NCBI RefSeq assembly: GCF_036250735.1
Contig: NZ_CP109430.1
Span: 3,720,001 to 3,784,000 of the forward strand
Source of the DNA: Streptosporangium sp. NBC_01495
GTDB lineage: Bacteria; Actinomycetota; Actinomycetes; Streptosporangiales; Streptosporangiaceae
Reading direction: 5' to 3'
Length of the DNA stretch: 64,000 bases
This document shows positions 17,351 to 64,000 of the stretch, piece by piece. Each line of letters starts with the position of its first letter. Position 1 is the first letter of the stretch. A program made the translations under genes and the position numbers. The notes under the pieces are model-generated. The model was not told where the DNA came from and did no database searches. It saw only the letters and a program-made list of their open reading frames with translations.

Positions 17351-17512
17351 GACGCCATACCTCGTGAGAACCCGGTATCGCCCCCCAAACATCCCGTCCG
17401 TCCGACCGGAGAACCGGATTCGTGACGCCGTCGTTCACGCCGACCTCGGCGGCGCCACGCTGGTGCTGTCCGGCCCGGCCGGACGGGCGGGATCCCCTTC
17501 ACTCTCTTTCAT

Positions 17513-17535
17513 CGAAGTTTCCAGCGAAGTTCCCA
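17513..17535. promoter_or_regulatory. Direct repeat upstream of the sugar ABC operon
   Basis: CGAAGTTTCCA (17513-17523) and CGAAGTTCCCA (17525-17535) are near-identical 11-mers with a 12-bp period, ending 36 bases before the ATPase start codon. They could be half-sites for a regulator. The 221-base gap upstream of the ATPase shows no gene. Confidence 0.35.
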
Positions 17536-17571
17536 TCGAGATTCTGTCGTAAAGATCCACGGAGGCCCCCC

Positions 17572-19101
17572 ATGCCGGAGCCGTCAACCGACTCGGCACC
17601 CCTCCTCGTGATGCGAGGAATCGTCAAGCAGTTCCCCGGAGTGCGCGCCCTCGACGGCGTCGACCTGGAGGTCCGCGCGGGCGAGGTGCACTGCCTGCTC
17701 GGCCAGAACGGTGCCGGGAAGTCCACTTTGATCAAGACCTTGGCGGGCGCTCACCAGCCCGACGAGGGGACGATCACGTTGAACGGTGAGGATGTGCGGC
17801 TGTCGAGCCCGATCACGGCGATCAGGCTCGGGATCTCCACGATGTATCAGGAGCTTGACCTGGTGGACGGGTTGAGTGTGGCCGAGAACGTGTTCTTGGG
17901 TCATGAGCCGTCCCGGATGGGGTTCGTGGGCCGGGGTGAGGCGGCGCGGGCGACGCGGGAGTTGCTGGCCAGGTTGGGGCACGGGGAGATCCGCCCGTCG
18001 ACGGAGGTGGGGCGACTGTCTCCGGCGGCCAAGCAGGTGGTGAGCATGGCGCGGGCGTTGTCGCACGACACCCGGTTGATCATCATGGACGAGCCGTCGG
18101 CGGCGCTGGCCCATGACGAGGTGGGCAACCTGTTCCGGATCATCCGGGAGTTGACCGCCCAAGGGGTGGCGGTGGTCTACATCTCGCATCGGCTGGAGGA
18201 GATCCGCGAGATCGGGGATCGGGTGACGGTGCTCAAGGACGGCCGGACGGTCGCGGTGGGCCTGCCGGCGAAGGAGACGCCGACCTCGCAGGTGGTGTCG
18301 CTGATGACCGGCCGCAACGTCGAGTACGTCTTCCCCAAGCGACCCGCCCCCGGCAGCCACGAGGGCAAGGCGGAGGTGCTGCAGGTCCGTGACCTGAGCA
18401 TCCCCGGTCGCGTCTCGGACGTGTCGTTCTCGGTGCGGGCGGGGGAGATCGTGGGGTTGGCCGGTCTGGTCGGCTCGGGCCGTTCGGAGATCATCGAGGC
18501 GGTGTACGGGGCGCGGCGGTTCTCCGGTCAGGTGGTTTTGGAGGGTAAGCCGGTGCGCCGGGGTGGTGGCACGACGGGTGCGGTGCGGCTGGGTATGGGT
18601 CTGGCGCCGGAGGAGCGTAAGGCTCAGGCGTTGCTGCTGGACCAGAGCGTGTCGCGCAACATCAGCCTGGCGAGTCTGGGCCGGTATTCGCGGCTGGGCT
18701 GGATGGACCGGCGCCGGGAGGCGGCCGACGCGCGGGAGATGGTGCAGGCCCTCGATATCCGGCCCGCTGATCCGGAGCGGCCGATCAAGACGTTGTCGGG
18801 CGGTAACCAGCAGAAGGCGGTGCTGGCCCGGTGGTTGCTGAACAACCGCAAGTTGTTGCTGTTGGACGAGCCGACCCGCGGGGTGGACGTGGGGGCTCGG
18901 GCGGAGTTGTACGCGGTGGTGCGGCGGCTGGCCGATGAGGGGATCGGGGTGTTGCTGGTCTCCAGCGAGGTTCCCGAGGTGCTGGGGCTGGCCGATCGGG
19001 TGCTGGTTCTGCGGGAGGGCCGGGTCATTCGTGAGGCCGGTGCCGGTGAGCTGGACGAGCACGCCGTCCTCGACATGATCATGGAAGGAAGTCCGGTATG
19101 A
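17572..19101 (+). CDS. Sugar ABC importer ATPase, tandem-domain (RbsA/XylG family)
   Basis: A 509-residue fused double ATPase that powers uptake of a monosaccharide or cyclitol. The first half has Walker A G-Q-N-G-A-G-K-S-T and Walker B L-I-I-M-D-E-P, but its signature is the degenerate V-G-R-L-S-P-A-A-K-Q. The second half has the degenerate P-loop G-L-V-G-S-G-R-S-E, signature L-S-G-G-N-Q-Q-K and Walker B L-L-L-L-D-E-P-T-R-G-V-D-V-G. This asymmetry is normal for the family. The ATG at 17572 follows GGAGG. It overlaps the permease by 4 bases. The substrate is not fixed by sequence; the neighbouring dehydrogenase and isomerase point to a polyol or inositol-like sugar. Confidence 0.92.
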   Translation: MPEPSTDSAPLLVMRGIVKQFPGVRALDGVDLEVRAGEVHCLLGQNGAGKSTLIKTLAGAHQPDEGTITLNGEDVRLSSPITAIRLGISTMYQELDLVDGLSVAENVFLGHEPSRMGFVGRGEAARATRELLARLGHGEIRPSTEVGRLSPAAKQVVSMARALSHDTRLIIMDEPSAALAHDEVGNLFRIIRELTAQGVAVVYISHRLEEIREIGDRVTVLKDGRTVAVGLPAKETPTSQVVSLMTGRNVEYVFPKRPAPGSHEGKAEVLQVRDLSIPGRVSDVSFSVRAGEIVGLAGLVGSGRSEIIEAVYGARRFSGQVVLEGKPVRRGGGTTGAVRLGMGLAPEERKAQALLLDQSVSRNISLASLGRYSRLGWMDRRREAADAREMVQALDIRPADPERPIKTLSGGNQQKAVLARWLLNNRKLLLLDEPTRGVDVGARAELYAVVRRLADEGIGVLLVSSEVPEVLGLADRVLVLREGRVIREAGAGELDEHAVLDMIMEGSPV

Positions 19102-20126
19102 GCGAGCCTCGGCTGCCGTCTGTGGACGAGCAGGTGCGAGTTGACAAGCAGGCCCGTAAACCCGTCGCGGGGGAGGGGCCGCTGGCCAGGCTGGGCAACG
19201 TCCCGCACCTGGGCCTGGTGGTCGCGCTGGTGTTGCTGGCGGCGGTGGGCCTTTTCACGGTGCCCGACACCTTCGCCACGACCTCCAACATGGTGAGCAT
19301 CCTGTCGCTGGCCGCGACCATCGGGGTGATCACCGTCGGCGCGACGTTCGTGATCATCGGCGGGGGTATCGACCTGTCGGTGGGCGCGATCATGGCGTTG
19401 GCGTCGGTGTGGGCGACCACGCTGGCCACCCAGTCCTACGGCCCGTTCGTGATGATCGTGTGCGCGGTGCTGGTCGGTACCGGTGCGGGCCTGGTCAACG
19501 GGTTGCTGATCTCCTACGGGCGGATGGTGCCGTTCATCGCCACTTTGGCGATGCTGGTGGCCGCCCGAGGGCTGGCGCAGCGGATGTCGGACCGGCGGAC
19601 CCAGCTGGTGCAGCAGGGCAACGAGATGATCGTGGAGCTGTCGACCAGCCGGGTGCTGGGCATTCCGCTGCTGGTCTACATCTTCGCGCTGGTGGTGATC
19701 GCCGGGTGGGTGCTGTTGAACCGCACCACGTTCGGCCGGCGCACCTACGCGGTGGGCGGTAACCCCGAGGCGGCCCGGCTGGCCGGTATCGACGTGCGCC
19801 GGCACACCGTGATGTTGTACGGGCTGTCGGGGTTGTGCTGCGGTATCGCGGCGGTGTTGATTATGGCCAGGACGACGACGGGTTCCTCCACCCACGGGGA
19901 CCTGTACGAGCTGGACGCGATCGCCGCGGTCATCATCGGCGGCACGCTGCTGACCGGCGGCCGGGGATCGATCATCGGGTCGATCCTGGGTCTGCTGATC
20001 TTCACCGTGATCACGAACCTGTTCATCCTCAACGGGCTCAACACCAGCGACCAGCTGGTGGCCAAGGGCCTGATCATCGTGGCGGCCGTGCTGCTCCAGC
20101 GACGTTCCCTACGTTCCCCTACCTGA
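19098..20126 (+). CDS. Sugar ABC importer permease (RbsC/XylH family)
   Basis: A 342-residue membrane permease that forms the homodimeric channel of the importer. Its N-terminal 35 residues are cytoplasmic, then eight or more hydrophobic segments follow. Motifs include F-V-I-I-G-G-G-I-D-L-S-V-G-A-I-M and G-G-N-P-E-A-A-R-L-A-G-I, the typical ATPase-contact loop. I-I-G-G-T-L-L-T-G-G-R-G-S-I is the conserved C-terminal motif. It overlaps the ATPase stop by 4 bases and is followed by the binding-protein gene after 32 bases. Confidence 0.92.
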   Translation: MSEPRLPSVDEQVRVDKQARKPVAGEGPLARLGNVPHLGLVVALVLLAAVGLFTVPDTFATTSNMVSILSLAATIGVITVGATFVIIGGGIDLSVGAIMALASVWATTLATQSYGPFVMIVCAVLVGTGAGLVNGLLISYGRMVPFIATLAMLVAARGLAQRMSDRRTQLVQQGNEMIVELSTSRVLGIPLLVYIFALVVIAGWVLLNRTTFGRRTYAVGGNPEAARLAGIDVRRHTVMLYGLSGLCCGIAAVLIMARTTTGSSTHGDLYELDAIAAVIIGGTLLTGGRGSIIGSILGLLIFTVITNLFILNGLNTSDQLVAKGLIIVAAVLLQRRSLRSPT

Positions 20127-20158
20127 TCGTCATCCCTTAAATATCAAGGAGAAATCAC

Positions 20159-21220
20159 ATGTCCAACCCATTAGCTCGTAGGGGTTTCCTCGTCGGCGGT
20201 GCGGTTATCGGTGCGGGTGCGCTGGTGACGGCGTGCACGGGTAACGAGGCGGCGGCTCCGGCGGCGGCTTCGGCTCCGGCGCCGGCTCCGGCCGCGACCG
20301 GCGGGAACGACGCCCCCGGTGAGAAGGTCGTCATCGGTTTCTCGGCGCCCGCGGCCGACCACGGCTGGATCGCCGCGATCGCGAAGAACGCCGAGGCCGC
20401 GGCCAAGGAGTACTCCGACATCGAGTTCAAGCCGGTCGAGCCGACCAACGACATCAACGCGCAGATCTCCGCGGTGGAGTCGCTGATCGCGGCCAAGGTC
20501 GCCGCGCTGGTGATCCTGCCCAACGACGGCCAGCAGCTCAACCAGATCGCCCGCCAGGCCTCGGATGCCGGTATTCCGGTGATCAACCTGGACCGGGTCT
20601 TCCCCGACAAGCTCTCCTACCGGACCTGGATCGGTGGCGACAACTACGGCATGGGGGTCGCGGCCGGTCACTACATCGGTAAGAAGCTCAAGGACAAGGG
20701 CGTCGCGTCCCCGGTGATCCTGGAGATCCAGGGCATCGCGACCCTGCCGCTGACCCAGGACCGCAGCAAGGGGTTCGAGGACGCGCTGAAGACGTATGGG
20801 TTCAGTGTGACGGCCAAGCAGGACGCGCAGTTCACCGTGGAGTCGGGTACCAAGGTGGCCGCGAACCTGATGCAGGCGCACAAGAAGATCGACGCGATCT
20901 GGAACCACGACGACGACCAGGGGATCGGGGTGCTGGCCGCGATCAAGGAGGCCGGGCGCAGCGAGTTCTTCATGGTCGGCGGCGCCGGGTCGGCGAACGC
21001 GATGCGCGACATTCAGGCCGGGTCGGGGGTGCTGGAGGCGACGGTGACCTACAGCCCGACGATGGCGTCCTCGGCGATCAAGCTGGCGCGTCTGATCGCC
21101 CAGGGCAAGGGCATGAGTGACCTGCTGGAGAACCAGGTGCCCCAATCGATCACGTTGGCGTCGGAGACGATCACCAAGGAGAACGTGGCCGAGTACCTGC
21201 CGCTGGGATTCGAGTCCTGA
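20159..21220 (+). CDS. Sugar ABC importer substrate-binding lipoprotein (Tat-type)
   Basis: A 353-residue periplasmic-binding-protein-like (RbsB/type I) solute receptor. The leader has a twin-arginine A-R-R-G-F-L-V and a lipobox L-V-T-A-C with lipidation at Cys26, so the folded protein is probably exported by Tat and anchored outside the membrane. An Ala/Pro-rich tether (about residues 30-50) precedes the mature fold, which begins V-V-I-G-F-S-A-P-A-A-D-H-G-W and shows the two-lobe pattern of the family. AAGGAG precedes the ATG. The ligand is probably a monosaccharide or cyclitol, inferred from neighbours. Confidence 0.92.
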   Translation: MSNPLARRGFLVGGAVIGAGALVTACTGNEAAAPAAASAPAPAPAATGGNDAPGEKVVIGFSAPAADHGWIAAIAKNAEAAAKEYSDIEFKPVEPTNDINAQISAVESLIAAKVAALVILPNDGQQLNQIARQASDAGIPVINLDRVFPDKLSYRTWIGGDNYGMGVAAGHYIGKKLKDKGVASPVILEIQGIATLPLTQDRSKGFEDALKTYGFSVTAKQDAQFTVESGTKVAANLMQAHKKIDAIWNHDDDQGIGVLAAIKEAGRSEFFMVGGAGSANAMRDIQAGSGVLEATVTYSPTMASSAIKLARLIAQGKGMSDLLENQVPQSITLASETITKENVAEYLPLGFES

Positions 21221-22416
21221 TGAGTCAATCCGATGGGCCGACGCTGGGGATCGGCATGGTCGGGTACGCCTTCATGGGCCGGGTGCATTCCCAGGCCTGG
21301 CGCAGTGTGTCGGCGTTCTTCGATCTGCCGGCCCGGCCGGTGATGGCCGCGTTGTGCGGCCGGTCGGCGGACGGGACGGCGGCGGCGGCCGAGCAGATGG
21401 GCTGGGCGGCGACCGAGACCGACTGGCGCAAGCTGATCGCCCGCGACGACGTGGCTGTGGTGGACATCTGCACGCCGGGTGACTCGCATGCCGAGATCGC
21501 GATCGCCGCGTTGGAGGCCGGTAAGCACGTGTTGTGTGAGAAGCCTCTGGCCAACACGGTCGCCGAGGCTGAGGCGATGGCGGCGGCGGCGCGCTCAGCG
21601 GCCGAGCGGGGGGTGTATGCGATGGTGGCGTTCAACTACCGTCGGGTGCCGGCCATCGCTCAGGCCGCCCGCTGGGTGGCCGAGGGCCGGCTGGGCGCCA
21701 TCCGGCACGTGCGGGCGCAGTACTTGCAGGACTGGATCGTCGATCCGGAGTTCCCGCTGGTGTGGCGGCTGCGAAAGGAGCTGGCCGGCTCGGGGGCGCT
21801 GGGTGACATCGGCGCGCACATCATCGACACCGCGCAGTTCATCACCGGTCAGAGGTTGACGCAGGTGTCGGGGTTGACCGAGACGTTCATCACGCACCGC
21901 CCGCTGGCCGGGGTGTCGGCCGGGTTGTCGGCCGATACCGGCAACGGAAGCGGCGCGGAGATGGGTGAGGTCGACGTCGATGACGCGGCGTTGTTCGTGG
22001 GCCGGCTCAGTGGCGGCGCCTTGGCGTCGTTCGAGGCGACCCGGTTCGCCACGGGGCGTAAGAACGCGTTGCGGATCGAGGTCAACGGCTCGAAGGCGAG
22101 TGTGGCGTTCGATTTCGAGGCGATGAACGAGTTGTGGTTCCACGATCACGCGTTGCCCGCCGAGGAGGCGGGTTTCCGCCGGGTGCTGGTCACCGAGGCG
22201 GGGCATCCGTACGCGGGGGCGTGGTGGCCGCCGGGTCATGGCCTGGGTTATGAGCACACCTTCACTCACGAGGTGAAGGACTTCGTCGAGGCGATCGCGT
22301 CGGGTATCGCTCCGGCGCCGTCGTTCGACGACGGGTTGAACGTTCAGCGTGTGCTGGCCGCGGTCGAGCGCAGCGCCGCCGACCAGAGCCGGTTGACGGC
22401 GATCGAGGAGGTATGA
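21220..22416 (+). CDS. Gfo/Idh/MocA-family dehydrogenase
   Basis: A 398-residue NAD(P)-dependent sugar or inositol dehydrogenase-like enzyme. The Rossmann start is G-I-G-M-V-G-Y-A-F-M-G, with C-T-P-G-D-S-H-A-E-I next to the cofactor and the catalytic-type motif C-E-K-P-L-A-N-T (Lys). G-D-I-G-A-H-I-I-D holds the usual Asp and His. The ATG shares one base with the stop of the binding-protein gene, so it is part of the importer operon and probably oxidises the imported compound. Codon choice is rich in TTG/GTG like the ABC genes and unlike the next gene. Confidence 0.9.
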   Translation: MSQSDGPTLGIGMVGYAFMGRVHSQAWRSVSAFFDLPARPVMAALCGRSADGTAAAAEQMGWAATETDWRKLIARDDVAVVDICTPGDSHAEIAIAALEAGKHVLCEKPLANTVAEAEAMAAAARSAAERGVYAMVAFNYRRVPAIAQAARWVAEGRLGAIRHVRAQYLQDWIVDPEFPLVWRLRKELAGSGALGDIGAHIIDTAQFITGQRLTQVSGLTETFITHRPLAGVSAGLSADTGNGSGAEMGEVDVDDAALFVGRLSGGALASFEATRFATGRKNALRIEVNGSKASVAFDFEAMNELWFHDHALPAEEAGFRRVLVTEAGHPYAGAWWPPGHGLGYEHTFTHEVKDFVEAIASGIAPAPSFDDGLNVQRVLAAVERSAADQSRLTAIEEV

Positions 22417-22465
22417 CGGAGCCCGCCCCCCGTGGGGCGCACACCCCATGAGCGGGTCCCGTCAC

Positions 22466-22506
22466 CCGCGTGGTGCGCGCGCGAACTGAGCTCGCGCACC
22501 ACGCGG
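22466..22506. promoter_or_regulatory. Strong intercistronic hairpin between dehydrogenase and isomerase genes
   Basis: A perfect 14-bp inverted repeat (22466-22479 with 22493-22506, arms CCGCGTGGTGCGCG/CGCGCACCACGCGG) encloses a 13-base loop, starting 50 bases after the dehydrogenase stop. No U-tract follows, so it is not a classic terminator. It lies just before the isomerase ribosome site and may act as an mRNA-stability element, an attenuator or a partial terminator. The fold is seen; the role is inferred. Confidence 0.6.
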
Positions 22507-22532
22507 CCCACAATCTGTGACATGGAGGACAT

Positions 22533-23540
22533 ATGAGCAGGCCGATCACCTTGTTCACCGGCCAGTGGGCCGACCTGCCGTTCGAGGAGGTCTGCCGCCT
22601 GGCCTCGGGCTGGGGATACGACGGCTTGGAGATCGCCTGCTGGGGCGATCACTTCGAGGTCGACAAGGCCCTCAGCGACGACGACTACATCCCCCGCAAG
22701 CAGGAACTGCTCGCCAAGCACAACCTGTCGGTGTACACCATCTCCAACCACCTGGTCGGCCAGGCCGTCTGCGACAACCCCATCGACGCCCGCCACCAGG
22801 GCATCCTGCCCGCCCGCCTCTGGGGCAACGGCGACCCCGAGCAGGTCCGCCGCAACGCCGCCGAAGAGATCAAGAACACCGCCCGCGCCGCCGCCAAACT
22901 CGGCGTCGACACCGTGGTCGGCTTCACCGGCTCCTCCATCTGGCACACCCTGGCCATGTTCCCCCCGGTCCCGCCCCAGATGATCGAGGACGGCTACGCC
23001 GACTTCGCCGACCGGTGGAACCCGATCCTCGACGTCTTCGACGAGGTCGGCGTCCGCTTCGCCCACGAGGTCCACCCCAGCGAGATCGCCTACGACTACC
23101 ACACCACCGTGCGCACCCTGGAGGCCATCGGCCACCGCCCCGCGTTCGGCCTGAACTGGGACCCCTCCCACATGGTGTGGCAGGAGATCGACCCGGTCGC
23201 CTTCATCCTGGACTTCGCCGACCGCATCTACCACGTCGACTGCAAGGACGCCAAGGTCCGCACCGGCGACGGCCGCCGCGGCCGCCTCGCCTCCCACCTG
23301 CCCTGGGCCGACCTACGCCGCGGATGGGACTTCGTCTCCACCGGCCGCGGCGACGTCCCCTGGGAGGACTGCTTCCGCGCCCTCAACGCGATCGGCTACG
23401 CCGGACCGATCTCCATCGAGTGGGAGGACGCCGGCATGGACCGCCTCGACGGCGCCCCCGACGCCCTGGCCGTCATCCGCAAACTCAACGCCATCACCCC
23501 GCCCTCCACCGCCTTCGACGCCGCCTTCTCCTCGGACTGA
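22533..23540 (+). CDS. TIM-barrel sugar isomerase/epimerase (AP-endonuclease-2 fold)
   Basis: A 335-residue member of the xylose-isomerase-like TIM-barrel family. Likely metal ligands are seen in F-A-H-E-V-H-P (Glu), L-N-W-D-P-S-H (Asp/His), H-V-D-C-K-D (His/Asp) and I-E-W-E-D-A-G (Glu). Such enzymes act as isomerases, epimerases or inosose dehydratases (IolE/IolI-like). After the dehydrogenase it could process a keto-sugar or keto-inositol. The ATG at 22533 follows GGAGG. Codon usage is C-ended, unlike the four upstream genes, so it may have joined the operon separately. Confidence 0.88.
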
Positions 23541-23933: not shown

Positions 23934-25082
23934 ATGCGTACGGGAGTGTGGCTGGTAGGAGCACGAGGGTCCGTCGCCGTCACGAGCATCATCGGAGCGC
24001 TAGCGGTGCGCGCCGGTCTCGCCCAGCCGACGGGCTGCGTGACGGAACTCCCCGAGTTCCGCGGCGCCGGACTGCCAGGTCTGGGAGACCTGGTGTTCGG
24101 CGGGCACGACATCGTGCCGACCCCGCTGGAGAAGAAGGCGGCCGCGCTGGCCGGAGCCGGGATCATACCGGCCCGGCTGCTCGAGCCCCTGCGCGACGAG
24201 CTCGCCCGGGTCGAGGAGAACCTGAGGCAGGTGCCGCTCGCCGAGAACCAGGCCGCGACCGCGGAGCTGATCGGCGCCGACATCACCGAGTTCCGGCTGC
24301 GGCACGGCCTGGAACGGGTCGTCGTCATCAACGTCTCGACCACCGAGCCGTTCCCAGCGCCCCATCCGGCCCACGCCGACCTGGAGCTGCTGGAGGCCGA
24401 GCTGGCGACCTCGCGGGACCTGCTGCCGCCCAGCGCCCTGACGGCGTACGCCGCCTTACGCGCGGGCTGTCCCTACGTGGACTTCACCCCGTCGACGGGC
24501 GCCCGGCTGCCCGCCCTGGACCGGCTCGCCGGCCTGATGGGGCTGCCGTACGGAGGCCACGACGGCAAGACCGGTGAGACGCTGGTCAAGTCGGTGCTCG
24601 CCCCGATGTTCGCCCAGCGCAACCTCCGGGTCCGCACCTGGTCGGGGATGAACCTCCTCGGCGGGGGAGACGGCGCCAACCTCGCCGATCCCGCCGCCAA
24701 CGCCGCCAAGGCCGCGAGCAAGCAGCGGGTGCTGGGCGAGACGCTCGGCTACACCCCGCAGGGCGAGACCCGCATCGAATACGTGGAGGACATCGGCGAC
24801 TTCAAGACCGCCTGGGACCTCGTCACCTTCGAGGGTTTCCTCGGTACGCCCATGCGCATGGAGTTCACCTGGCACGGCTGCGACTCCGCCCTCGCCGCGC
24901 CCCTGGTCCTGGACCTGGCGAGGCTCACGTCGGCGGCGCACCGCTCCGGCCGCACCGGGCCGCTGGGCGAGCTGGCCTTCTTCTTCAAGGACCCGCTCGG
25001 GGCGGTGCCGCACGCGCTGGCCGACCAGTGGCGGGTGCTCCGCGAGTTCGCCGGCACCCTCGGCGGAGAGGAACCGGTCTGA
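23934..25082 (+). CDS. Inositol-1-phosphate-synthase-like enzyme of an ebo-type cluster
   Basis: A 382-residue NAD-dependent sugar-phosphate cyclase-like protein. V-G-A-R-G-S-V-A is the Rossmann loop. V-V-I-N-V-S-T-T-E-P, G-G-H-D-G-K-T-G-E-T-L-V-K and G-M-N-L-L-G-G-G-D-G-A-N-L parallel the conserved inositol-1-phosphate synthase blocks, and F-F-F-K-D-P resembles the distal lysine motif. It is shorter than eukaryotic INO1, as bacterial forms are. It leads a coupled operon with EboC, EboA, EboB, EboE and EboF-like genes, where a dehydroquinate-synthase-like EboD is usual. The product is probably a cyclitol phosphate. It has a rare TTA codon at 24456. Confidence 0.82.
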   Translation: MRTGVWLVGARGSVAVTSIIGALAVRAGLAQPTGCVTELPEFRGAGLPGLGDLVFGGHDIVPTPLEKKAAALAGAGIIPARLLEPLRDELARVEENLRQVPLAENQAATAELIGADITEFRLRHGLERVVVINVSTTEPFPAPHPAHADLELLEAELATSRDLLPPSALTAYAALRAGCPYVDFTPSTGARLPALDRLAGLMGLPYGGHDGKTGETLVKSVLAPMFAQRNLRVRTWSGMNLLGGGDGANLADPAANAAKAASKQRVLGETLGYTPQGETRIEYVEDIGDFKTAWDLVTFEGFLGTPMRMEFTWHGCDSALAAPLVLDLARLTSAAHRSGRTGPLGELAFFFKDPLGAVPHALADQWRVLREFAGTLGGEEPV

Positions 25083-25975
25083 TGCCGTCGCTGCGCGACC
25101 TCGCCGAGCTCGTGCGTGCCCCCGCCGCCCTGTCCGTACCCGGTGACGTCGTCGCCGGGGCCGCCGCCGGGCAGGTGCTCGGCGGCAGGACCCTCGGCCT
25201 GGCCTGCTCCTCGGTCTGCCTGTACTGGGCGGGAATGGCCGCCAACGACTGGGCCGACCGCCACCTGGACGCGGTGGAACGCCCGGAGCGGCCGATCCCG
25301 TCCGGCCGGGTGTCGCCGGACGCCGCGCTCAAGGTGGCCGCGGGTCTCACCGTCGCCGGTCTGGCGGCCGCAGGGCTCTCCGGCGGTCGCCGGGCCCTGG
25401 CGGTCGCCGTCCCGCTCGCCGCCGCCGTCTGGTCGTACGACCTGGTGGCCAAGAACACGGCGGCGGGGCCGCTGGCGATGGCGCTCTGCCGCGGCCTCGA
25501 CGTGCTGCTGGGCGCGACCCCGGGCCGGAGCGTCGCGGACGCGCTGCCCTCGGCCCTCACCGTCGCCGCCCACACCTACCTGCTCACCGCGCTGTCGCGC
25601 GCCGAGGTGTCCGGCTCCGACCGCAGCCTCCCCGCGGCGACCCTGGCGGGCACCGTCGCGCTCGCCGTGGCCACCGCGCTGGGGCGCGGCGACGCCTCGC
25701 GCGAGCCGCAGACCGCGCGCGCGGCACAGGTGGTGCGGACCGTGCAGGCGGGGCTCACCGGCTGGTACGCCGCCAGGTTCGGCCTGTCCCAGGCCCAGGC
25801 GGTCGCCGAGCCGTCGGCCTCCCGGCTGCGGGCCGCCGTCGGTACCGGCATCGTCGCGCTGCCCGCCCTGCAGGGCGCGCTCGTCGCCCGCAGCGGCGCC
25901 ATCCGCGAGGGCATCGCGGTCGCGGCGGCCGTCCCGCTCGGCCGGGCCCTCGCCAGGAAGGTGTCCCCCACATGA
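25082..25975 (+). CDS. eboC: UbiA-superfamily prenyltransferase-like membrane protein (EboC)
   Basis: A 297-residue polytopic membrane protein of the UbiA superfamily. The first Asp-rich motif is clear: A-A-N-D-W-A-D-R-H-L-D-A-V-E-R followed by P-I-P-S-G-R. The canonical second D-x-x-x-D motif is not obvious; G-R-G-D-A-S-R-E-P stands near that place, as expected for the divergent EboC branch. It may join a prenyl group to a small metabolite in the membrane. The ATG shares one base with the upstream stop. The chain starts at 25082 although the frame is open further upstream inside the previous gene. Confidence 0.82.
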   Translation: MPSLRDLAELVRAPAALSVPGDVVAGAAAGQVLGGRTLGLACSSVCLYWAGMAANDWADRHLDAVERPERPIPSGRVSPDAALKVAAGLTVAGLAAAGLSGGRRALAVAVPLAAAVWSYDLVAKNTAAGPLAMALCRGLDVLLGATPGRSVADALPSALTVAAHTYLLTALSRAEVSGSDRSLPAATLAGTVALAVATALGRGDASREPQTARAAQVVRTVQAGLTGWYAARFGLSQAQAVAEPSASRLRAAVGTGIVALPALQGALVARSGAIREGIAVAAAVPLGRALARKVSPT

Positions 25976-26847
25976 GCCCCGGCAGCACCGAAACGAGCAC
26001 GGGTGCCGGGCCGAGGTTCGGCTACGGCACCAACGGGTTCGCCAACCACCGGCTGGCCGACGCGCTCCGGGTCATCGCGGACCTCGGCTACCAGGGGGTC
26101 GCCCTCACGCTCGACCACGACCACCTGGACCCGTACGAGGAGGGGGTGGCGCGCAGGGTCGCGGCCGTGGCCGACCTGCTGCGCGACCTCGGCCTCGGCG
26201 TGGTCGTCGAGACCGGGGCCCGCTACCTGCTGGACCCGTGGCGCAAGCACGCCCCCACGCTGCTGCACGACGAGCGCGAGACGCGCCTGGACTTCCTGAG
26301 CCGGGCGGTCGCGATGGGCGCCGACCTGGGAGCCGAGGCGGTGTCGTTCTGGGCGGGCGTCCGCCCGGAGACGGTCGACGAGGCCACGGCCTGGGCCAGG
26401 CTCGTCGACGGCTGCGCCCGGATCGCCGAGAAGGCCGACACCGCCGGTGTGCCGCTGGGCTTCGAGCCCGAGCCCGGCATGCTCGTCGAGACGATCGCCG
26501 GATGGCGGAAGCTCCACGCCGAACTCGGCGAACCGCCGGGGTTCGGCATCACGCTGGACATCGGCCACTGCCGCTGTCTCGAACCGGACCCGGTCCCCGA
26601 CTGCGTCACGGCCGTCGCCGGCCACCTGGTCAACGTGCAGATCGACGACATGCGCCGCGGGGTGCACGAGCACCTGGAGTTCGGGGAAGGGGAGATCGAC
26701 TTCCCTCCCGTGCTGCGCGCCCTGGCCGAGTGCGGCTATCGGGGCCTGGTCGCGGTCGAGCTGCCCCGCCACTCGCACGCCGCGCCGCAGGTGGCCGCCC
26801 GATCCCTGGACTTCCTGCGCGCCGCCGCCGAAGGGACGAACGCATGA
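25972..26847 (+). CDS. TIM-barrel isomerase/epimerase within the ebo-type operon
   Basis: A 291-residue xylose-isomerase-like TIM-barrel protein. Likely metal ligands lie in L-G-F-E-P-E-P-G (Glu), L-D-I-G-H-C (Asp, His), V-Q-I-D-D-M (Asp) and A-V-E-L-P-R-H (Glu). It overlaps the EboC stop by 4 bases and the EboA start by 4. Standard ebo clusters have one TIM-barrel member (EboE); this operon has two, so this is an accessory step, perhaps isomerising the substrate or product of the cyclase. Reaction unknown. Confidence 0.83.
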   Translation: MSPGSTETSTGAGPRFGYGTNGFANHRLADALRVIADLGYQGVALTLDHDHLDPYEEGVARRVAAVADLLRDLGLGVVVETGARYLLDPWRKHAPTLLHDERETRLDFLSRAVAMGADLGAEAVSFWAGVRPETVDEATAWARLVDGCARIAEKADTAGVPLGFEPEPGMLVETIAGWRKLHAELGEPPGFGITLDIGHCRCLEPDPVPDCVTAVAGHLVNVQIDDMRRGVHEHLEFGEGEIDFPPVLRALAECGYRGLVAVELPRHSHAAPQVAARSLDFLRAAAEGTNA

Positions 26848-27455
26848 CACCGGAACCGAGCACCCGGACGGACAGCCTGCTGGCGGCCCTCGACCAGGAG
26901 TGGCTCGCCGCCGCCCGGGAGGGCGTCGCCGCCGAACCCGGGAGCGTCACGCGGCACTTCGCCTCCGCGGGACGGCGCGCCGGACGGGCACCGCTGCCGG
27001 ACGCCCCCGGCTGGACCGCCGACGAGGCGGCCAGGGCGGTCCTCCTCGCCGCGCTGCCGCCGGACGCGGTGGCCGGGCAGGTCGCGGACCTCTACCGGTA
27101 CGGCGACGCCGACGAGAAGCGCGCCGTCCTCAAGGCCCTGCCGATGCTGCCCGTCGGCGCGGAGGCGGTGCCGCTCCTGCACGACGCGATCCGCACCAAC
27201 GACACCCGCCTCGTGGCCGCCGCCCTCGGCCCGTACGCCGGCCACCTCGACCAGACCATGTGGCGGCAGGCGGTGCTCAAGTGCGTGTTCATGGGCGTGC
27301 CGCTCGCCGCCGTGGACCGGCTGGAGGAGCGGGCCGACGCCGAGCTGGCCGGGATGCTCGCCGCGTTCGCCGAGGAACGCGCGGCGGCCGGGCGGCACAC
27401 CCCCGACGACGCGATCGCACTGCTCGACCGTCTGACCAGCGAGAAGGAGGCCTGA
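26844..27455 (+). CDS. eboA: EboA domain protein
   Basis: A 203-residue soluble, helical, Ala-rich protein. The block L-Y-R-Y-G-D-A-D-E-K-R-A-V-L-K-A-L followed by A-I-R-T-N-D-T-R-L-V-A-A-A-L-G-P-Y-A and W-R-Q-A-V-L-K-C-V-F-M-G-V-P-L is the conserved EboA core, with HEAT-like helical pairs. EboA is a diagnostic member of ebo clusters; its biochemical role is unknown. It is translationally coupled on both sides (4-base overlap upstream, one shared base downstream). Confidence 0.82.
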   Translation: MTPEPSTRTDSLLAALDQEWLAAAREGVAAEPGSVTRHFASAGRRAGRAPLPDAPGWTADEAARAVLLAALPPDAVAGQVADLYRYGDADEKRAVLKALPMLPVGAEAVPLLHDAIRTNDTRLVAAALGPYAGHLDQTMWRQAVLKCVFMGVPLAAVDRLEERADAELAGMLAAFAEERAAAGRHTPDDAIALLDRLTSEKEA

Positions 27456-28312
27456 TGCGGATCTTCGACCCGCACATCCACATGACGTCGCGCACCACCG
27501 ACGACTACGCCAGGATGGCCGCCGCCGGGGTGCTCGCCATCGTGGAGCCCGCCTTCTGGCTGGGCCAGCCCCGGACCAACCCCGGCTCGTTCACCGACTA
27601 CTTCGACTCGCTGATCGGCTGGGAGCCGTACCGCGCGGGGCAGTTCGGCATCCTGCACCACGCCACCATCGCGCTGAACCCCAAGGAGGCCGGAGACCCG
27701 CGCTGCCGGCCCGTGCTCGACCTGCTCCCGCGCTACCTGGAGAAGGACCGCGTCGTCGCGGTCGGCGAGATCGGCTACGACTCGATGACCCCCGACGAGG
27801 ACGACGCCTTCGAACGGCAGCTCGCGATGGCCGTCGACCACGAGCTGCCCGCGCTCGTGCACACCCCGCACCGCGACAAGGCCAAGGGCACCCAGCGCAC
27901 CCTCGACGTCGTCGCCGCGTCCGGCATCGCGCCCGGACGGGTCGCCGTCGACCACCTCAACGAGGTCACCGCGGGGATCGTGCACGACTCGGGCTGCTGG
28001 ATGGGCTTCTCCATCTACCCCGAGACCAAGATGTCGCCGCCCCGCATGGTGGAGATCCTGCGCGAGCACGGCCTGGAGCGGGTGCTGGTCAACTCCGCCG
28101 CCGACTGGGGCGTGTCCGACCCGCTGCTCACCCTGGAGACCGGCAGGGCGATGCTGGAGGCCGGGTTCAGCGAGGACGACGTCGACCGGGTGCTGTGGCG
28201 CAACCCCGTGGAGTTCTACGCCCAGTCGGGCCGCCTCGACCTGTCGGGCGTCGGTGCCGGGGCGGCGGAACCCACCTTCGAGGGCAGCTCCATCAAGCGC
28301 GGAGGGTCTTGA
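27455..28312 (+). CDS. eboB: TatD-family metal hydrolase (EboB)
   Basis: A 285-residue amidohydrolase-fold protein. F-D-P-H-I-H-M gives the H-x-H metal site, G-E-I-G-Y-D the bridging Glu, L-V-H-T-P-H a His ligand, V-D-H-L-N-E another His, and N-S-A-A-D-W-G the final Asp. All metal ligands are present, so it should be active as a hydrolase. TatD-like EboB is a core member of ebo clusters. The ATG shares one base with the EboA stop, and AAGGAGG lies just before it. Confidence 0.86.
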   Translation: MRIFDPHIHMTSRTTDDYARMAAAGVLAIVEPAFWLGQPRTNPGSFTDYFDSLIGWEPYRAGQFGILHHATIALNPKEAGDPRCRPVLDLLPRYLEKDRVVAVGEIGYDSMTPDEDDAFERQLAMAVDHELPALVHTPHRDKAKGTQRTLDVVAASGIAPGRVAVDHLNEVTAGIVHDSGCWMGFSIYPETKMSPPRMVEILREHGLERVLVNSAADWGVSDPLLTLETGRAMLEAGFSEDDVDRVLWRNPVEFYAQSGRLDLSGVGAGAAEPTFEGSSIKRGGS

Positions 28313-29439
28313 TGCGGCTACGCCACCCCGGTGGACGGGCGCTGCACCTGAGCTACTGCACCAACGTGCACCCGGCCGAGGACCTCGACGGCATCGTCGA
28401 GCAGCTCGACACGTACGCGGTGCCGATCCGCGCCCGCCTCGGCACCGAGGTGCTGGGGCTCGGGCTCTGGCTGGCCGCGCCCGTCGCCGCCGCGCTCGCC
28501 GCCGACCCCGCGCTGCTGGCCGGGTTCCGCCGCGAGCTGGACGCGCGGGAGCTGGAGGTCGTGACGCTCAACGGCTTCCCCTACCGCTCGTTCCAGGACC
28601 CGGTCGTCAAGCACGCGGTCTACCACCCCGACTGGACGACTTCCGAACGGCTCACCTACACCCTCGACCTGGCGCGGATCCTCGCCGTCCTCCTGCCGGA
28701 CGACGCCGCCAGGGGATCGATCTCCACGCTCCCGCTCGCCTGGCGCGACCCCTGGGACGAGGACATGTCCCACCGTGCCACGCGCAGGCTCGACGAGCTC
28801 GCCACCGGGCTCGCCGCCGTCGAGTCCGCCACCGGCCGCGTCATCCGGGTGGCGTTCGAACCCGAGCCCGGCTGCGTGGTGGAGACCACCGATCAGGCCG
28901 TGCGCGCCCTGTCCGGCGTCGACACCGACCGGCTCGGCATCTGCCTGGACCTAGCCCACCTGGCGTGCGCCTGGGAGCGGCCCGCCGACGCGCTGCGCCG
29001 GTACGCCGAGGCGGGCCTGCCCATCGTCAAGGTCCAGGTCTCCGCGGCCCTGGAGAGCGACGACCCGGAGACCCTGCGCGAGTACGTCGAGCCGCGCTTC
29101 CTGCACCAGACCCGCAACGCGGCCGGCGACGACGCCGACGACCTCGACGAGGCGTTCGAGCGGAAGCTGCCAGGACCGTGGCGGGTCCACTACCACGTAC
29201 CGTTGCACGTCGCACCGGAGGCGCCGCTCGGCACCACCGTTCCGGTGCTCCGCGAGGCCCTCGCGGAGCTGGTCGGCGGCTCCGAGCCGCTCTGCGACCA
29301 CTTCGACGTGGAGACCTACACCTGGGGCGTGCTGCCACCCGCGCTGCGCCCGCAGACCCCCGGCCAGCTCGCGGCCGGCATCGCCGACGAGCTGGACTTC
29401 GCCCGCGCCGAGATGCGCGACCTTGGAGTGAAAGCATGA
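28312..29439 (+). CDS. eboE: Metabolite-traffic protein EboE (TIM-barrel)
   Basis: A 375-residue protein of the EboE branch of xylose-isomerase-like TIM barrels. It starts L-H-L-S-Y-C-T-N-V-H-P, and T-L-N-G-F-P-Y-R-S-F-Q is highly characteristic, as is S-T-L-P-L-A-W-R. Likely ligands are in F-E-P-E-P-G-C (Glu), C-L-D-L-A-H-L (Asp, His), H-Y-H-V-P-L-H (His) and V-E-T-Y-T-W (Glu). It shares one base with the EboB stop, and GGAGG precedes it. Ebo clusters have been linked to delivering a precursor to the periplasm in scytonemin-making cyanobacteria; the exact reaction is unknown. Confidence 0.86.
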   Translation: MRLRHPGGRALHLSYCTNVHPAEDLDGIVEQLDTYAVPIRARLGTEVLGLGLWLAAPVAAALAADPALLAGFRRELDARELEVVTLNGFPYRSFQDPVVKHAVYHPDWTTSERLTYTLDLARILAVLLPDDAARGSISTLPLAWRDPWDEDMSHRATRRLDELATGLAAVESATGRVIRVAFEPEPGCVVETTDQAVRALSGVDTDRLGICLDLAHLACAWERPADALRRYAEAGLPIVKVQVSAALESDDPETLREYVEPRFLHQTRNAAGDDADDLDEAFERKLPGPWRVHYHVPLHVAPEAPLGTTVPVLREALAELVGGSEPLCDHFDVETYTWGVLPPALRPQTPGQLAAGIADELDFARAEMRDLGVKA

Positions 29440-30812
29440 CATCGTTGCTGGTCCTCGACGTAGTGGGGCTGACCCCGAGGCTGCTGGCGCACATGCCGAG
29501 GCTGCGCGCCGTCGCCGACGGCGGTTTCCAGGCCGAACTCGGCACCGTGCTGCCCGCCGTCACCTGCTCGGCCCAGTCGACCTTCCTCACCGGCGTCGCC
29601 CCCACCGAGCACGGCGTCGTCGGCAACGGCTGGTACTTCCGCGAGCTCGGCGAGGTCTTCCTGTGGCGCCAGCACAACGCGCTGGTCGGCGGGGACAAGC
29701 TGTGGCACGCCGCCCGGCGCGAGCGGCCCGGTTTCACCGTGGCCAACGTGTGCTGGTGGTACGCGATGGGCGCCGACGTCGACTGGACGGTCACCCCCCG
29801 GCCCATCTACCGGGCCGACGGGCGCAAGGACCCCGACTGCTACACCTACCCGCCGGGCCTGCACGATGAGCTCACCGGAAAGCTGGGCACCTTCCCCCTG
29901 TTCACCTACTGGGGCCCGGGGGCGGGAATCGCCTCGTCCACCTGGATCTGCCGCGCCACCGAGCAGATCATGAAGGACCACAACCCCGACCTCACCCTGG
30001 CGTACGTGCCGCACCTGGACTACGACCTGCAGAGGTTCGGCCCGTCCGACCCGCGCTCGGCCGCCGCCGCCTCCGAGCTCGACACCGTGCTGGCCCCCCT
30101 GCTGGACGCCGCCGCCGCGCGCGGGACCACCGTGGTGGCACTGTCGGAGTACGGCATCACCGACGTCTCCCGCCCGGTCGACATCAACCGGCTGCTGCGG
30201 ACCGAGGGACTGCTGGAGGTCTACACCCAGGACGGCATGGAGTATCTCGACCCCTGGACGTCCCGCGCGTTCGCCGTCGCCGACCACCAGGTGGCCCACG
30301 TCTACGTCGCCGACCCCGCCGACATCCCGGCCGTCGCCAAGCTCTGCGCCGGCCTGCCCGGGGTCGCCGAGGTGCTCGACGAGGAGGGCAAGGCGAGGAA
30401 CGGGCTGGCGCACTCCCGCGCCGGAGAGCTGGTTCTCGTCTCCGAGCCCGACGCCTGGTTCACCTACTACTACTGGCTCGACGACGCCCACGCCCCCGAC
30501 TTCGCCAACCTGGTGGAGATCCACCGCAAGCCGGGCTACGATCCCGCCGAGTTGCTCTTCGACCCCGCGGACCCCGGTGCCGCCAAGCGCAGGGCGGGTA
30601 TGGCGCTGCTGCGCAAGAAGACCGGCATGCGCTACACGATGAACGTGGTCGGCCTCGACGCGGGCGCCCGCGCCATCCGGGGTTCGCACGGCCGGCTGCC
30701 CGACAATCCCCTCGACGGCCCGGTGCTGCTCTGCTCGGACCCGTCCGTGGCCGCCGACCGGATCGCCGCCACCGAGGTCAAGGATCTGCTGCTCCGGCTC
30801 TCCCTGAGCTGA
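29436..30812 (+). CDS. Nucleotide pyrophosphatase/phosphodiesterase-type protein (EboF-like)
   Basis: A 458-residue protein of the alkaline-phosphatase/NPP superfamily. V-T-C-S-A-Q-S-T-F-L-T-G carries the likely Thr nucleophile, and T-E-H-G-V-V-G-N follows as in type I phosphodiesterases. Two metal sites look altered: S-E-Y-G-I stands where the superfamily has S-D-H-G-M, and L-D-Y-D-L-Q-R-F-G-P where D-x-x-G-H-x-x-G-P is usual. It may therefore bind metal differently or be specialised for a phosphonate or phospholipid-like substrate. It ends the operon, overlapping EboE by 4 bases, before a hairpin terminator. Confidence 0.82.
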   Translation: MTSLLVLDVVGLTPRLLAHMPRLRAVADGGFQAELGTVLPAVTCSAQSTFLTGVAPTEHGVVGNGWYFRELGEVFLWRQHNALVGGDKLWHAARRERPGFTVANVCWWYAMGADVDWTVTPRPIYRADGRKDPDCYTYPPGLHDELTGKLGTFPLFTYWGPGAGIASSTWICRATEQIMKDHNPDLTLAYVPHLDYDLQRFGPSDPRSAAAASELDTVLAPLLDAAAARGTTVVALSEYGITDVSRPVDINRLLRTEGLLEVYTQDGMEYLDPWTSRAFAVADHQVAHVYVADPADIPAVAKLCAGLPGVAEVLDEEGKARNGLAHSRAGELVLVSEPDAWFTYYYWLDDAHAPDFANLVEIHRKPGYDPAELLFDPADPGAAKRRAGMALLRKKTGMRYTMNVVGLDAGARAIRGSHGRLPDNPLDGPVLLCSDPSVAADRIAATEVKDLLLRLSLS

Positions 30813-38141: not shown

Positions 38142-41100
38142 GTGAACGAAAACGTTGTTGAGGATCAGTCGTCAACCCGGCTTCTGGAATACCTGAAGAA
38201 AGTAACGCTGGAACTTCTTGAGACTCGTGATGGGCTGGAGCGGCTTCAGGCCCGGATGGACGAGCCGATCGCGATCGTGGGCATGAGCTGCCGGTATCCG
38301 GGTGGCGTCGAATCCCCGGACCAGCTGTGGAACCTGGTCGCCTCGGGCCGGGACGCGATTTCGGAGTTCCCGCCGGACCGAGGCTGGGATCTGGACCGGT
38401 TGTTCGATCCGGACCCGGACAAGACAGGCACGTCCTATGCGCGTGAGGGCGGATTCCTGTCGAGCGTGGCGGAGTTCGACGCCGGGTTCTTCGGTATCGG
38501 GCCGCGTGAGGCGTCGGCGATGGATCCGCAGCAGCGTTTGTTGCTGGAGGCGTCGTGGGAGGCGTTGGAGGACGCGGGGATCGACCCGACGTCGTTGCGG
38601 GGGAGCGACACCGGTGTGTTCGCGGGCGTGATGTACCAGGATTACGGATTCGCCGCGCAATCGACTGCCACCGAGGGATATGTCGGCACCGGTTCGGCGG
38701 GCAGTGTGGTGTCGGGGCGGGTGGCGTACAGCCTGGGGCTGGAAGGCCCGGCGGTCACTCTGGACACGGCGTGTTCGTCGTCGCTGGTGGCGTTGCACCT
38801 GGGGTGTCAGGCGTTGCGCCAGGGCGAGGCGTCGCTGGTGCTGGCGGGTGGCGTCACGGTGATGTCGACGCCGTTGCTGTTCGTGGAGTTCTCCCGTCAG
38901 CGGGGGCTGTCGCCGGACGGCCGATGCAAGGCGTTCTCTTCCTCGGCCAACGGTGTCGGCTGGTCCGAGGGTGTCGGCGTGCTGGTGCTGGAGCGTCTGT
39001 CGGACGCGCGGCGGCTTGGGCACGACGTTCTGGCCGTCATCCGTGGTAGCGCGCTGAATCAGGACGGCGCGAGCAACGGGTTGACCGCGCCGAACGGTCC
39101 CTCGCAGGTGCGGGTGATCGGGCAGGCGCTGGCGAGTGCGGGGTTGTCGTCCGCGGATGTGGACGTGGTCGAGGCGCACGGTACCGGGACCACGCTGGGT
39201 GATCCGATCGAGGCGCAGGCGTTGATCGCCGCGTACGGCCAGGATCGCGACGAGCCGTTGCGGATCGGGTCGTTGAAGTCGAACATCGGGCACACGCAGG
39301 CCGCCGCCGGTGTGGCCGGTGTGATCAAGATGGTGCAGGCGCTTCGTCACGAGGTGTTGCCGCAGACGTTGCACGTGGACGAGCCGTCGTCGCATGTGGA
39401 CTGGTCGGCGGGTTCGGTGCGGGTGCTGACCGAGGCCGAGCCGTGGCCGGCGGCCGACCGGGCGCGCCGGGCCGGGGTGTCGTCGTTCGGGATCAGTGGC
39501 ACCAACGCGCATGTGATCCTTGAGGAGGCGCCCGCGAAGCCGGTGGAGCCGGAGGAGTCGGAGGCGCCCGACGGCGATGCGACCGATGCCGGACCGCGTC
39601 CGGGCGAGGCGTCCGCCGAGGCCGCCGCTCCGGTGGCGATCGCCACCGACGTGATGCCGTGGCCCGTGTCGGCCAAGAGCGAGGAAGGGCTGCGGGCGCA
39701 GGCGCAGCGGATGCATCGCTGGCTGCTCGACCATCCGGAGGCGCACCTCGCCGAGGTCGCCTACTCGTTGGTGAACTCGCGGGCGCACCTCAACCATCGC
39801 GGTGCGGCGGTCGCCGCGGACCGGGACGGAATGCTGGCGCGCCTGGCCGAACTGGCCGCCGGTTCGACGTCCTCCGGTGCGGTCGCGGGGGCCGTCGAGG
39901 CGGGGAAGACGGCGCTGTTGTTCACCGGCCAGGGTGCGCAAAGAGCCGGCATGGGGGCCGGTCTGTACGAGGCGTTCCCGGTGTTCGCGTCCGCGCTGGA
40001 CGAGGTCTGCGTCCAGTTCGATCGACTGCTCGGCCGCTCGCTGAAGGACGTGATGTTCGGGGGCGAGGGCGGCGATCTGCTGGATCGGACCGACTTCACC
40101 CAGCCGGCGTTGTTCGCGTTCGAGGTGGCGCTGTTCCGGCTGCTGGAGTCGTTCGGTGTCACCCCGGATGTGGTGATCGGGCATTCCATCGGAGAGCTCG
40201 TCGCCGCCCACATCGCCGGGCTCTGGACGCTTGAGGATGCCTGCGCGCTGGTCGCCGCGCGGGGACGGCTCATGGCGGCGTTGCCCGAGGGGGGTGCGAT
40301 GCTCGCCATCGCGGTCCCGGAGACCGCGGCGGCCGAGGCGATCGCCGGATTCGACGGCCGGGTGTCCATCGCCGCGGTGAACGCGCCCGCGGCCGTGGTG
40401 ATCTCCGGCGACCAGGACGCGGTCGCCGAGATCGAGCGGCGGCTGTCCGCCGAGGGACACAAGACGTCACGGTTGCGGGTCTCCCACGCCTTCCATTCGG
40501 TGCACATGGAACCGATGCTCGACGAGTTCGAGTCGATCGCCCGGAGGATCGCCTACCATCCGCCACGGATACCGGTGGTGTCCAACGTGTCCGGTGCCGT
40601 CGCCGGAGCGGAGCTGCTGGACGCGGCGTACTGGGTGCGGCAGGTGCGGGCGGCGGTGCGGTTCGCCCCGGGTATCGAGACCCTCCGCGACCTGGGCGTG
40701 CGGCGGTTCCTGGAGATGGGGCCCGATGCGGTCCTGTCGGCGCTGACCCGTCTGTGCCTGCCAGGGGAGGCTGAGGCACGGTCGCTCGTCGCGGCGGCCA
40801 CGCGGCGCGGCCAGGACGAGGCCGAGCGGGTTCTGTCCTTACTCGCCGCGGCGCACACGTCCGGTGTGGACGTTGACTGGACGCCGCTGTTCTCCGGGCG
40901 TGAGGTTGCCCGGGTTTCCCTGCCCACTTACGCGTTCCAACGCCGGCGGTACTGGCACGACCCCGCTTTGGCGGACGCCCGGATCGGTGATGTCACCCAG
41001 GCGGGGCTGGTGTTTCCCGACCATCCGCTGCTCGGTGCGGCGGTGCAACTCGCGGGCCGGGACGAGTGGCTGTTCACCGGCCGCGTCTCGCGGCGGAACC

Positions 41101-58346: not shown

Positions 58347-64000
<5,654 letters not shown>

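Follow-up and report, generated by a model that had tools for sequence, protein, structure and literature searches.

How is the ring closed in an ebo operon that lacks the cyclase EboD? Clusters of ebo genes occur widely, Nostoc depends on its own for scytonemin production, and the substrate of EboD is a guess. The question is raised by a stretch of 64,000 nucleotides from Streptosporangium sp. NBC_01495 (contig NZ_CP109430.1; hereafter the window), taken from a genome of 11.1 Mb in two contigs. At 23934-30812, seven same-strand genes form a real operon in the order Ino1-like cyclase, UbiA-like prenyltransferase of the SCO3242 type, TIM-barrel enzyme, EboA-domain protein, TatD-family protein (EboB), EboE and phosphodiesterase-like EboF. 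All seven start with ATG, and every junction is overlapped by 1 or 4 bases (in order -1, -4, -4, -1, -1 and -4). A preliminary description of this DNA had recognized an ebo set of EboC-like UbiA, EboA domain, EboB, EboE and EboF in overlapping genes, which both the overlaps and the family models bear out. Because EboD is missing and ebo operons without eboD have been published (PMC5133447), the operon is regarded as a variant rather than a standard member of the ebo system, one with an inositol-type cyclase and apparently of an undescribed form. Our favored reading, with a probability of about one half, is that this inositol form of ebo encodes a cyclitol-isoprenoid pathway with an inositol phosphate ring.

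By sequence and by model, the Ino1-like protein belongs to the archaeal type of inositol-phosphate synthases. Both Pfam domains of myo-inositol-phosphate synthases score above cut-off, and among PDB entries the sequence is nearest to the Archaeoglobus fulgidus enzyme (1u1i, 242 bits) and BT1526 (7nwr, 164 bits), followed by Ari2 (48 bits) and the mycobacterial enzyme (28 bits). The predicted model (mean predicted local distance difference test score, pLDDT, of 93.8) superposes on 1u1i with Z 49.4 and 1.5 Å over 368 residues, and with Z 48.5, 29.0 and 28.0 on 7nwr, Ari2 and the mycobacterial enzyme, respectively. In the alignment, A. fulgidus D225, N255, D261, K274, K278, K306, D332 and K367, which we take to be catalytic, correspond to D210, N240, D246, K259, K263, K291, D317 and K352 of the window protein; K278A, K367A and N255A are mutants named in PDB titles. 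All eight, including the four active-site lysines on which the earlier assignment hinged, are invariant in 14 diverse and 36 actinobacterial Ino1 sequences. The protein is therefore strongly predicted to make inositol phosphate from glucose 6-phosphate. It does not pass the mycothiol INO1 equivalog model TIGR03450 (27.7 bits against a cut-off of 638); the only other PF01658 match in the genome is a mycothiol Ino1 (690 against 638), so a mycothiol Ino1 duplicate was rejected and the copy in the operon appears unneeded for mycothiol. Alternatively, the cyclase could use another sugar phosphate, perhaps that of EboD, to make a different cyclitol or the one of EboD clusters. The Ino1 superfamily can change its product, since Ari2 is named a five-membered-cyclitol-phosphate synthase, and a genome already provided with a mycothiol Ino1, as well as the sharing of EboB, EboE and EboF by both cluster types, would suit such a change. 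Being far nearer to true inositol-phosphate synthases (Z 49 against 29 for Ari2) and unchanged in the mapped catalytic residues, the window protein makes this alternative unlikely, and an inositol phosphate ring remains the preferred product.

To place the operon among its relatives, 396 actinobacterial genomes were surveyed with profile cut-offs for EboE. EboE was found over cut-off in 18 genomes (any match in 19), and the Ino1 subtype of the window in 17, at 307-846 bits; the next score was 209, and the line of 300 bits was drawn after this gap was known. All 17 genomes with the Ino1 subtype have EboE over cut-off, compared with one of the 379 others (Fisher's exact test, 6e-29, kinship ignored), and this single genome (G381) has an operon (L030) with EboD. 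In addition, 100 loci around EboE matches were collected, 20 from the surveyed genomes and the best 80 of at least 583 EboE relatives, which, having been selected by similarity to the query EboE, are no sample of other phyla. Among the 78 complete loci (at least 19 kb), 64 carry a full-length Ino1; the 14 without it comprise 13 of Streptomycetaceae or family f3 and the EboD locus. The Ino1 variant proposed earlier is thus real, though not an odd single case; it is rather the usual actinobacterial form. A reading of Ino1 as a chance neighbor was rejected on the same count.

EboD itself was found neither in the operon nor elsewhere in the genome with a nine-sequence EboD profile, the best match being one of 153 bits that we take for AroB, whereas the control genome (G381), which bears EboD, gave 634 bits; one of the EboD queries started upstream of its likely start. 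Tabulating EboE neighbors by cyclase (the preliminary description had suggested doing so for EboA) revealed no mixed loci: EboD is present in none of the 64 complete Ino1 loci and Ino1 in none of 11 EboD loci. The claim that an Ino1-like protein stands in the place of EboD therefore holds, and the functional swap is a real exchange of cyclases, although what is exchanged seems to be not the cyclase alone. As an unrelated cyclase was exchanged while most other genes stayed, a cyclitol ring is suggested to be what the system requires from it.

The TIM-barrel gene, previously called an extra isomerase, is indeed present and is tied to Ino1 rather than a mere extra: it occurs in 63 of the 64 complete Ino1 loci, and with the expect value limited to 1e-4 its profile finds no match among the 11 EboD loci. 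In 7 of the 100 loci, TIM barrel and EboA share one frame, in agreement with PMC5133447, which mentions fused entries from actinobacteria as data not shown. In the PDB, the TIM-family profile matches best MJ1311 (of unknown function), UlaE and IolI; ketose 3-epimerases are among the matches that follow. Separately, two plasmid clusters from Hymenobacter and Roseomonas (L156, L157) carry Ino1, an Ino1-type TIM barrel, Gfo/Idh, YcaO and a PIG-L deacetylase without ebo genes, and apparently represent a different cyclitol pathway.

The prenyltransferase fails the EboC model NF035940 (138 bits against 250) and passes the sister model for SCO3242; of six EboC proteins scanned from EboD-type loci, five also fail NF035940. 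Two sets of trees, one of them including the quick EboC tree, used ten EboD-type rows, the near-copy L171 being left out. In the EboC tree, a branch sets the EboD-type rows apart, with support of 100* without the long-branched Aureibacter row and 73/53 with it; the quick tree with that row has no EboD-type branch. Thus, by sequence, EboC tends to split by cyclase type, which is not decisive. With an isomerase that follows Ino1 and is absent from EboD loci, and prenyltransferases that tend to sort with the type of cyclase, the unit of exchange appears to be Ino1, isomerase and EboC together.

EboC might instead prenylate an aromatic or other cargo, with the Ino1 product serving elsewhere, for example as a head group or an osmolyte. 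In favor of this, Ubi-297 enzymes use 8-hydroxyquinoline-2-carboxylic acid as acceptor of a farnesyl group (PMC9235831), and ebo is required for export of the scytonemin monomer (PMC6282210). The tests described in the available text of PMC9235831 used aromatic acceptors only, however, and the tendency of EboC to split with cyclase type is expected if the cyclase supplies the acceptor, leaving an aromatic cargo rather improbable. A simple role of the operon in providing inositol to phospholipids or mycothiol, its genes forming no common pathway, fits the ordinary inositol-phosphate synthesis predicted for its cyclase and is nevertheless very unlikely in view of the mycothiol Ino1 encoded elsewhere, the restriction of the subtype to EboE-bearing genomes among the 396 and the strict gene order and overlap.

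The cyclitol-isoprenoid pathway that we prefer would run as follows. Ino1 is strongly predicted to convert glucose 6-phosphate to inositol phosphate; the TIM-barrel enzyme, kin of ketose epimerases and the inosose isomerase IolI, would modify the ring or its oxidized form, perhaps aided by the neighboring Gfo/Idh dehydrogenase; EboC, whose nearest solved relative prenylates a polyol phosphate, would put an isoprenoid on the ring; and EboB, EboE and EboF, organized by the HEAT-like EboA, would process the conjugate to a membrane-embedded isoprenoid-cyclitol. In EboD-type clusters, the other cyclase would give the ring, and what replaces it would be a set made up of Ino1, its TIM barrel and an EboC that matches them. 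This reading is drawn from the fold and active site of Ino1, its link to EboE in 17 of 17 genomes, the separate mycothiol Ino1, the recurrence of the operon, the TIM pairing and links to isoprenoid genes. A type 2 isopentenyl-diphosphate isomerase (320 bits against 281) encoded right after EboF in the EboD-type actinobacterial locus L030 (12362-13402) is a further hint of an isoprenoid product.

Upstream of the operon, the genes at 17422-23540 for a sugar importer, a dehydrogenase and an isomerase are recurrent companions. Across the 64 complete Ino1 loci, in a span of about 9 kb around EboE and at author-chosen thresholds, polyprenyl synthetase was counted in 26, glucose/sorbosone dehydrogenase (GSDH)-domain secreted protein in 37, ThuA/3-keto-disaccharide hydrolase in 35, a TIM barrel of another family (F10) in 19, IolE-like TIM barrel in 22, Gfo/Idh in 16, and importer ATPase, permease and binding protein in 18, 18 and 17, respectively. 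The GSDH and ThuA counts overlap, because both profiles can match one long protein, and the counts are not independent, because many loci come from one family. The 14 loci without Ino1 have Gfo/Idh once, importer ATPase twice and none of the others. Neither GSDH nor ThuA genes were seen next to the window operon, where the whole window was not searched for them. Importer families also adjoin ebo in other loci and Ino1 without ebo in L160 and L162. Such genes might suggest that the locus belongs to a regulon for breaking down sugars or cyclitols (by import, 3-keto oxidation and isomerization) and that the ebo module serves this catabolism, as importer, Gfo/Idh, TIM-barrel, ThuA/3-keto-disaccharide hydrolase and GSDH-domain genes recur beside actinobacterial Ino1-ebo, some of them also in Gemmatirosa and haloarchaea, and Ino1 lies among them without any ebo gene in L160 and L162. 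A prenyltransferase and a prenyl-diphosphate synthase are unfit for plain catabolism, and the catabolic genes are missing from many loci (the binding protein of the importer is present in 17 of 64), so we give this explanation little credence and retain the cyclitol-isoprenoid pathway.

The 13 complete loci with neither Ino1 nor EboD lie in 13 genomes, 12 of which have the Ino1 subtype elsewhere, in nine of them within a second ebo operon (by coordinates). In two others (G404, G407), all that the second ebo operon (L161, L163) has of Ino1 is a fragment, and no EboC was found in L161 or L163; an intact Ino1 lies without ebo genes (L160, L162), surrounded by genes for an importer, Gfo/Idh, a TIM barrel (F10) and a GSDH-domain protein, L160 additionally carrying an IolE-like TIM barrel. 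In the last (G405), the genes are spread over three contigs: one of 4 kb joins an Ino1 to EboC, the TIM barrel and a partial EboA, one of 6 kb has another Ino1, and the third has the sole EboE. In eight of the 14 Ino1-less loci (L085, L074, L086, L027, L078, L091, L094, L100), a protein of the inositol-monophosphatase family and an FAD enzyme resembling CrtO/CrtI are encoded upstream; a P450 occurs in eight of the 14, six of them being CrtO/CrtI-bearing ones. Given these genes, the Ino1-less Streptomyces loci look like a terpenoid cluster built on ebo.

The Ino1 form also occurs on plasmids and beyond actinobacteria. In a plasmid collection, 48 records match EboE, 32 of them actinobacterial; 28 of the 32 have Ino1 within about 6 kb (by coordinates), two keep only EboB, EboE and EboF, one has EboE alone and one is a fragment. 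Eleven of the 16 non-actinobacterial records were opened, revealing ten with EboD and one, Gemmatirosa, with Ino1. The window Ino1 matches 44 plasmid records, 40 of them among the matches listed; eight non-actinobacterial loci were opened, plus Gemmatirosa via EboE. Plasmid 2 of Gemmatirosa kalamazoonensis (L147) carries EboG-EboB-EboF-EboC-Ino1-TIM with a divergent EboE. EboG, which marks the second published ebo operon type (PMC5133447), is there 57% identical to that of L030. Three haloarchaeal plasmids (L151, L153, L155) have TatD-TIM-UbiA-TIM beside Ino1-EboF, and a fourth haloarchaeal Ino1 examined has no ebo neighbors. EboD was not found on the four Ino1-ebo records (Gemmatirosa and the three haloarchaeal plasmids), the search covering those records only. 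GSDH-like or 3-keto-hydrolase genes lie next to the loci of Gemmatirosa and Natronococcus, and a ThuA-annotated gene next to that of Halocatena. Database annotation already names the genes singly, for example on a Streptomyces camelliae plasmid. There, a gene annotated as ScyD/ScyE family (L152, 10689-11891) lies directly upstream of Ino1-ebo; we take ScyD and ScyE to be scytonemin-cluster names.

In the Ino1 tree, the actinobacterial ebo proteins form one group (98*) with one stand-alone Streptomyces copy inside, the haloarchaeal ones, including the non-ebo copy, form another (100*), and Gemmatirosa is outside both; the TIM tree includes one meaningless row (L046), on which no conclusion is based. 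The EboB tree ties Gemmatirosa to the EboG group and rejects its joining actinobacteria (approximately unbiased, AU, test, p 4e-43). EboF (AU p 0.15) and EboE (p 0.47) place it among EboD loci without rejecting the actinobacterial joining, so that the case for an independent exchange in Gemmatirosa is made by EboB together with the presence of EboG. The EboF tree puts actinobacterial and haloarchaeal rows on one side of a starred branch, and EboB is not against this (p 0.07); on these sequences both groups may share a single Ino1 origin. The simplest story would be that Ino1 joined ebo at least twice, once per core type, with transfer of a cassette as an alternative.

The remaining genes complete the ebo core (Table 1).

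Table 1 Genes of the inositol-type ebo operon and its upstream companions in the window (scores in bits, against model cut-offs where given).
Feature	Position	Strand	Evidence
Ino1-like inositol-3-phosphate synthase (cyclase), in EboD position	23934-25082	+	PF07994 161.9, PF01658 109.3; closest PDB entry A. fulgidus myo-inositol-phosphate synthase
UbiA-superfamily prenyltransferase, SCO3242 subtype of EboC	25082-25975	+	NF045897 382 vs 260
Xylose-isomerase-like TIM-barrel enzyme, Ino1 companion	25972-26847	+	PF01261 134.8
EboA-domain protein, all-helical HEAT-like model	26844-27455	+	NF035938 162.5 vs 50; model pLDDT 96.4
EboB, TatD-family metallohydrolase	27455-28312	+	PF01026 42.4 vs 27
EboE, xylose-isomerase-like TIM barrel	28312-29439	+	NF035939 416 vs 250
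EboF, alkaline-phosphatase superfamily, altered metal-site motif	29436-30812	+	PF01663 218 vs 23
Ribose-type sugar ABC importer, recurrent companion	ATPase 17422-19101 (start provisional), permease 19098-20126, binding protein 20159-21220	+	
Gfo/Idh/MocA oxidoreductase, recurrent companion	21220-22416	+	NCBIfam best levoglucosan dehydrogenase 370 < 650; iolG 112 < 355
TIM-barrel protein weakly like IolE, recurrent companion	22533-23540	+	PF01261 149; iolE 46 < 290

The earlier placements in the EboA and EboE families are both upheld, EboA at the level of the domain model, its narrower family model NF035937 being failed (76 bits against 320). The EboA model has no Foldseek match at an expect value of 0.001 or below, and VIA gave a best Z of 10.3 to HEAT repeats; as this is within the range common for helical repeats, HEAT-like is a description only. 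Its all-helical predicted fold is compatible with the scaffold role proposed in PMC6282210. The EboC protein is weakly related to its nearest solved structure, digeranylgeranylglyceryl phosphate synthase (27 bits), and has its Asp-rich motif. EboB has the motifs HxH, E, H, H and D, which we take to be metal ligands. The EboB-family and EboF-family profiles of the window score 252-446 and 570-658 bits, respectively, on their counterparts from EboD-type loci. In EboF, EY replaces the DH of phosphonoacetate hydrolase and Q replaces its H, and this EY is common to the 48 rows compared, including actinobacterial, EboD-type, Gemmatirosa and haloarchaeal ones; because these usual metal-site residues are replaced, EboF may be other than an ordinary phosphodiesterase. 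A lone EboE (L174, NZ_CP108489.1, 8989-10167) lies in a cluster annotated as aromatic polyketide (ketosynthase/chain-length factor), which also encodes several FAD monooxygenases but no other ebo protein; EboE may thus act as a stand-alone enzyme. A second, shorter EboE-like gene of 184 bits, under cut-off, stands alone in the window genome (L045, 8965-9912; G000:C1:10378687), adjoining a Clp ATPase near DisA and RadA-like ATPase genes, without ebo neighbors. The nearest named relatives of the window genes are in Streptosporangiaceae and Micromonosporaceae, and a promoter-like site was looked for and not found. Downstream, large modular polyketide synthase genes occupy 38142-54962 and 58347-64000, the former type I by its first 1000 residues and the latter assigned by eye, with four Rfam ASpks matches inside them on the opposite strand.

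Several observations weigh against an inositol-based isoprenoid pathway. The activities of the ebo genes here and their product are sequence-based predictions, and a hydrolase role is doubtful for an EboF without part of the usual metal site. The flavobacterial EboC-type enzymes that farnesylate quinolines in vitro were given aromatic acceptors in the tests described (PMC9235831), and the joining of the Gemmatirosa EboC to the EboD side is not rejected (AU p 0.41 and 0.064). Polyprenyl synthetase is mainly a companion in Micromonosporaceae (21 of 26 loci) and was not seen beside the window operon, where the whole window was not searched for it. The cassette is also imperfectly kept: one genome (G402) has an ebo operon yet no such Ino1, the Ino1-less loci (Streptomyces operons) keep the TIM barrel in 12 of 14, the F10 TIM barrel and Gfo/Idh genes lie beside EboD in two Ketogulonicigenium loci, and the haloarchaeal clusters are without EboA and EboE.

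A wider proposal, which we offer tentatively and consider doubtful, is that ebo is a modular membrane system of bacteria and archaea with an exchangeable ring-making head, in which Ino1, isomerase and a matching prenyltransferase would replace EboD and its prenyltransferase on an EboA or EboG core. The inositol form would then make an undescribed class of prenylated inositols shared by actinobacteria and haloarchaea, working in the membrane with extracytoplasmic sugar-oxidizing proteins encoded next door. In open-licence literature, no paper linking ebo with inositol and nothing related on prenylated inositol was found, and the word inositol is absent from the main texts of PMC5133447, PMC6282210 and PMC9235831, as far as these are available. 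The first step proposed here would be a ring closure that ranks among the best understood in biochemistry. As the cyclase appears fully equipped to form inositol phosphate, the opening reaction of an unexplained pathway becomes testable, with glucose and inositol easily obtained as labeled precursors.

Compared with known systems, the cyclase resembles the L-myo-inositol-1-phosphate synthase of A. fulgidus in fold, in 41% identity over 368 residues and in the mapped catalytic residues, and differs in being encoded within an ebo operon, with its activity predicted. Ari2 (6k96) belongs to the same superfamily, is more distant than the A. fulgidus enzyme in both structure and sequence, and by its name makes a product other than inositol phosphate. 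In Streptomyces coelicolor, the whole operon is presumably located at SCO3242-SCO3243. These adjacent tags denote a putative transferase, whose NCBIfam model the window protein passes, and a myo-inositol phosphate synthase, and they are listed as genes of the calcium-dependent antibiotic (CDA) cluster, not called ebo, in the available text of PMC3610822. For EboD-type ebo, an isoprenoid-cyclitol product has been proposed (PMC5133447), and in Nostoc, where scytonemin-monomer export depends on ebo, a prenylated-cyclitol carrier and periplasmic traffic (PMC6282210). The window operon shares with the EboA-F operon of these reports the EboA domain, EboB, EboC-like UbiA, EboE and EboF as overlapping genes, and differs from it in lacking EboD, in having Ino1 and an additional TIM-barrel enzyme, and in an EboC of the SCO3242 subtype.

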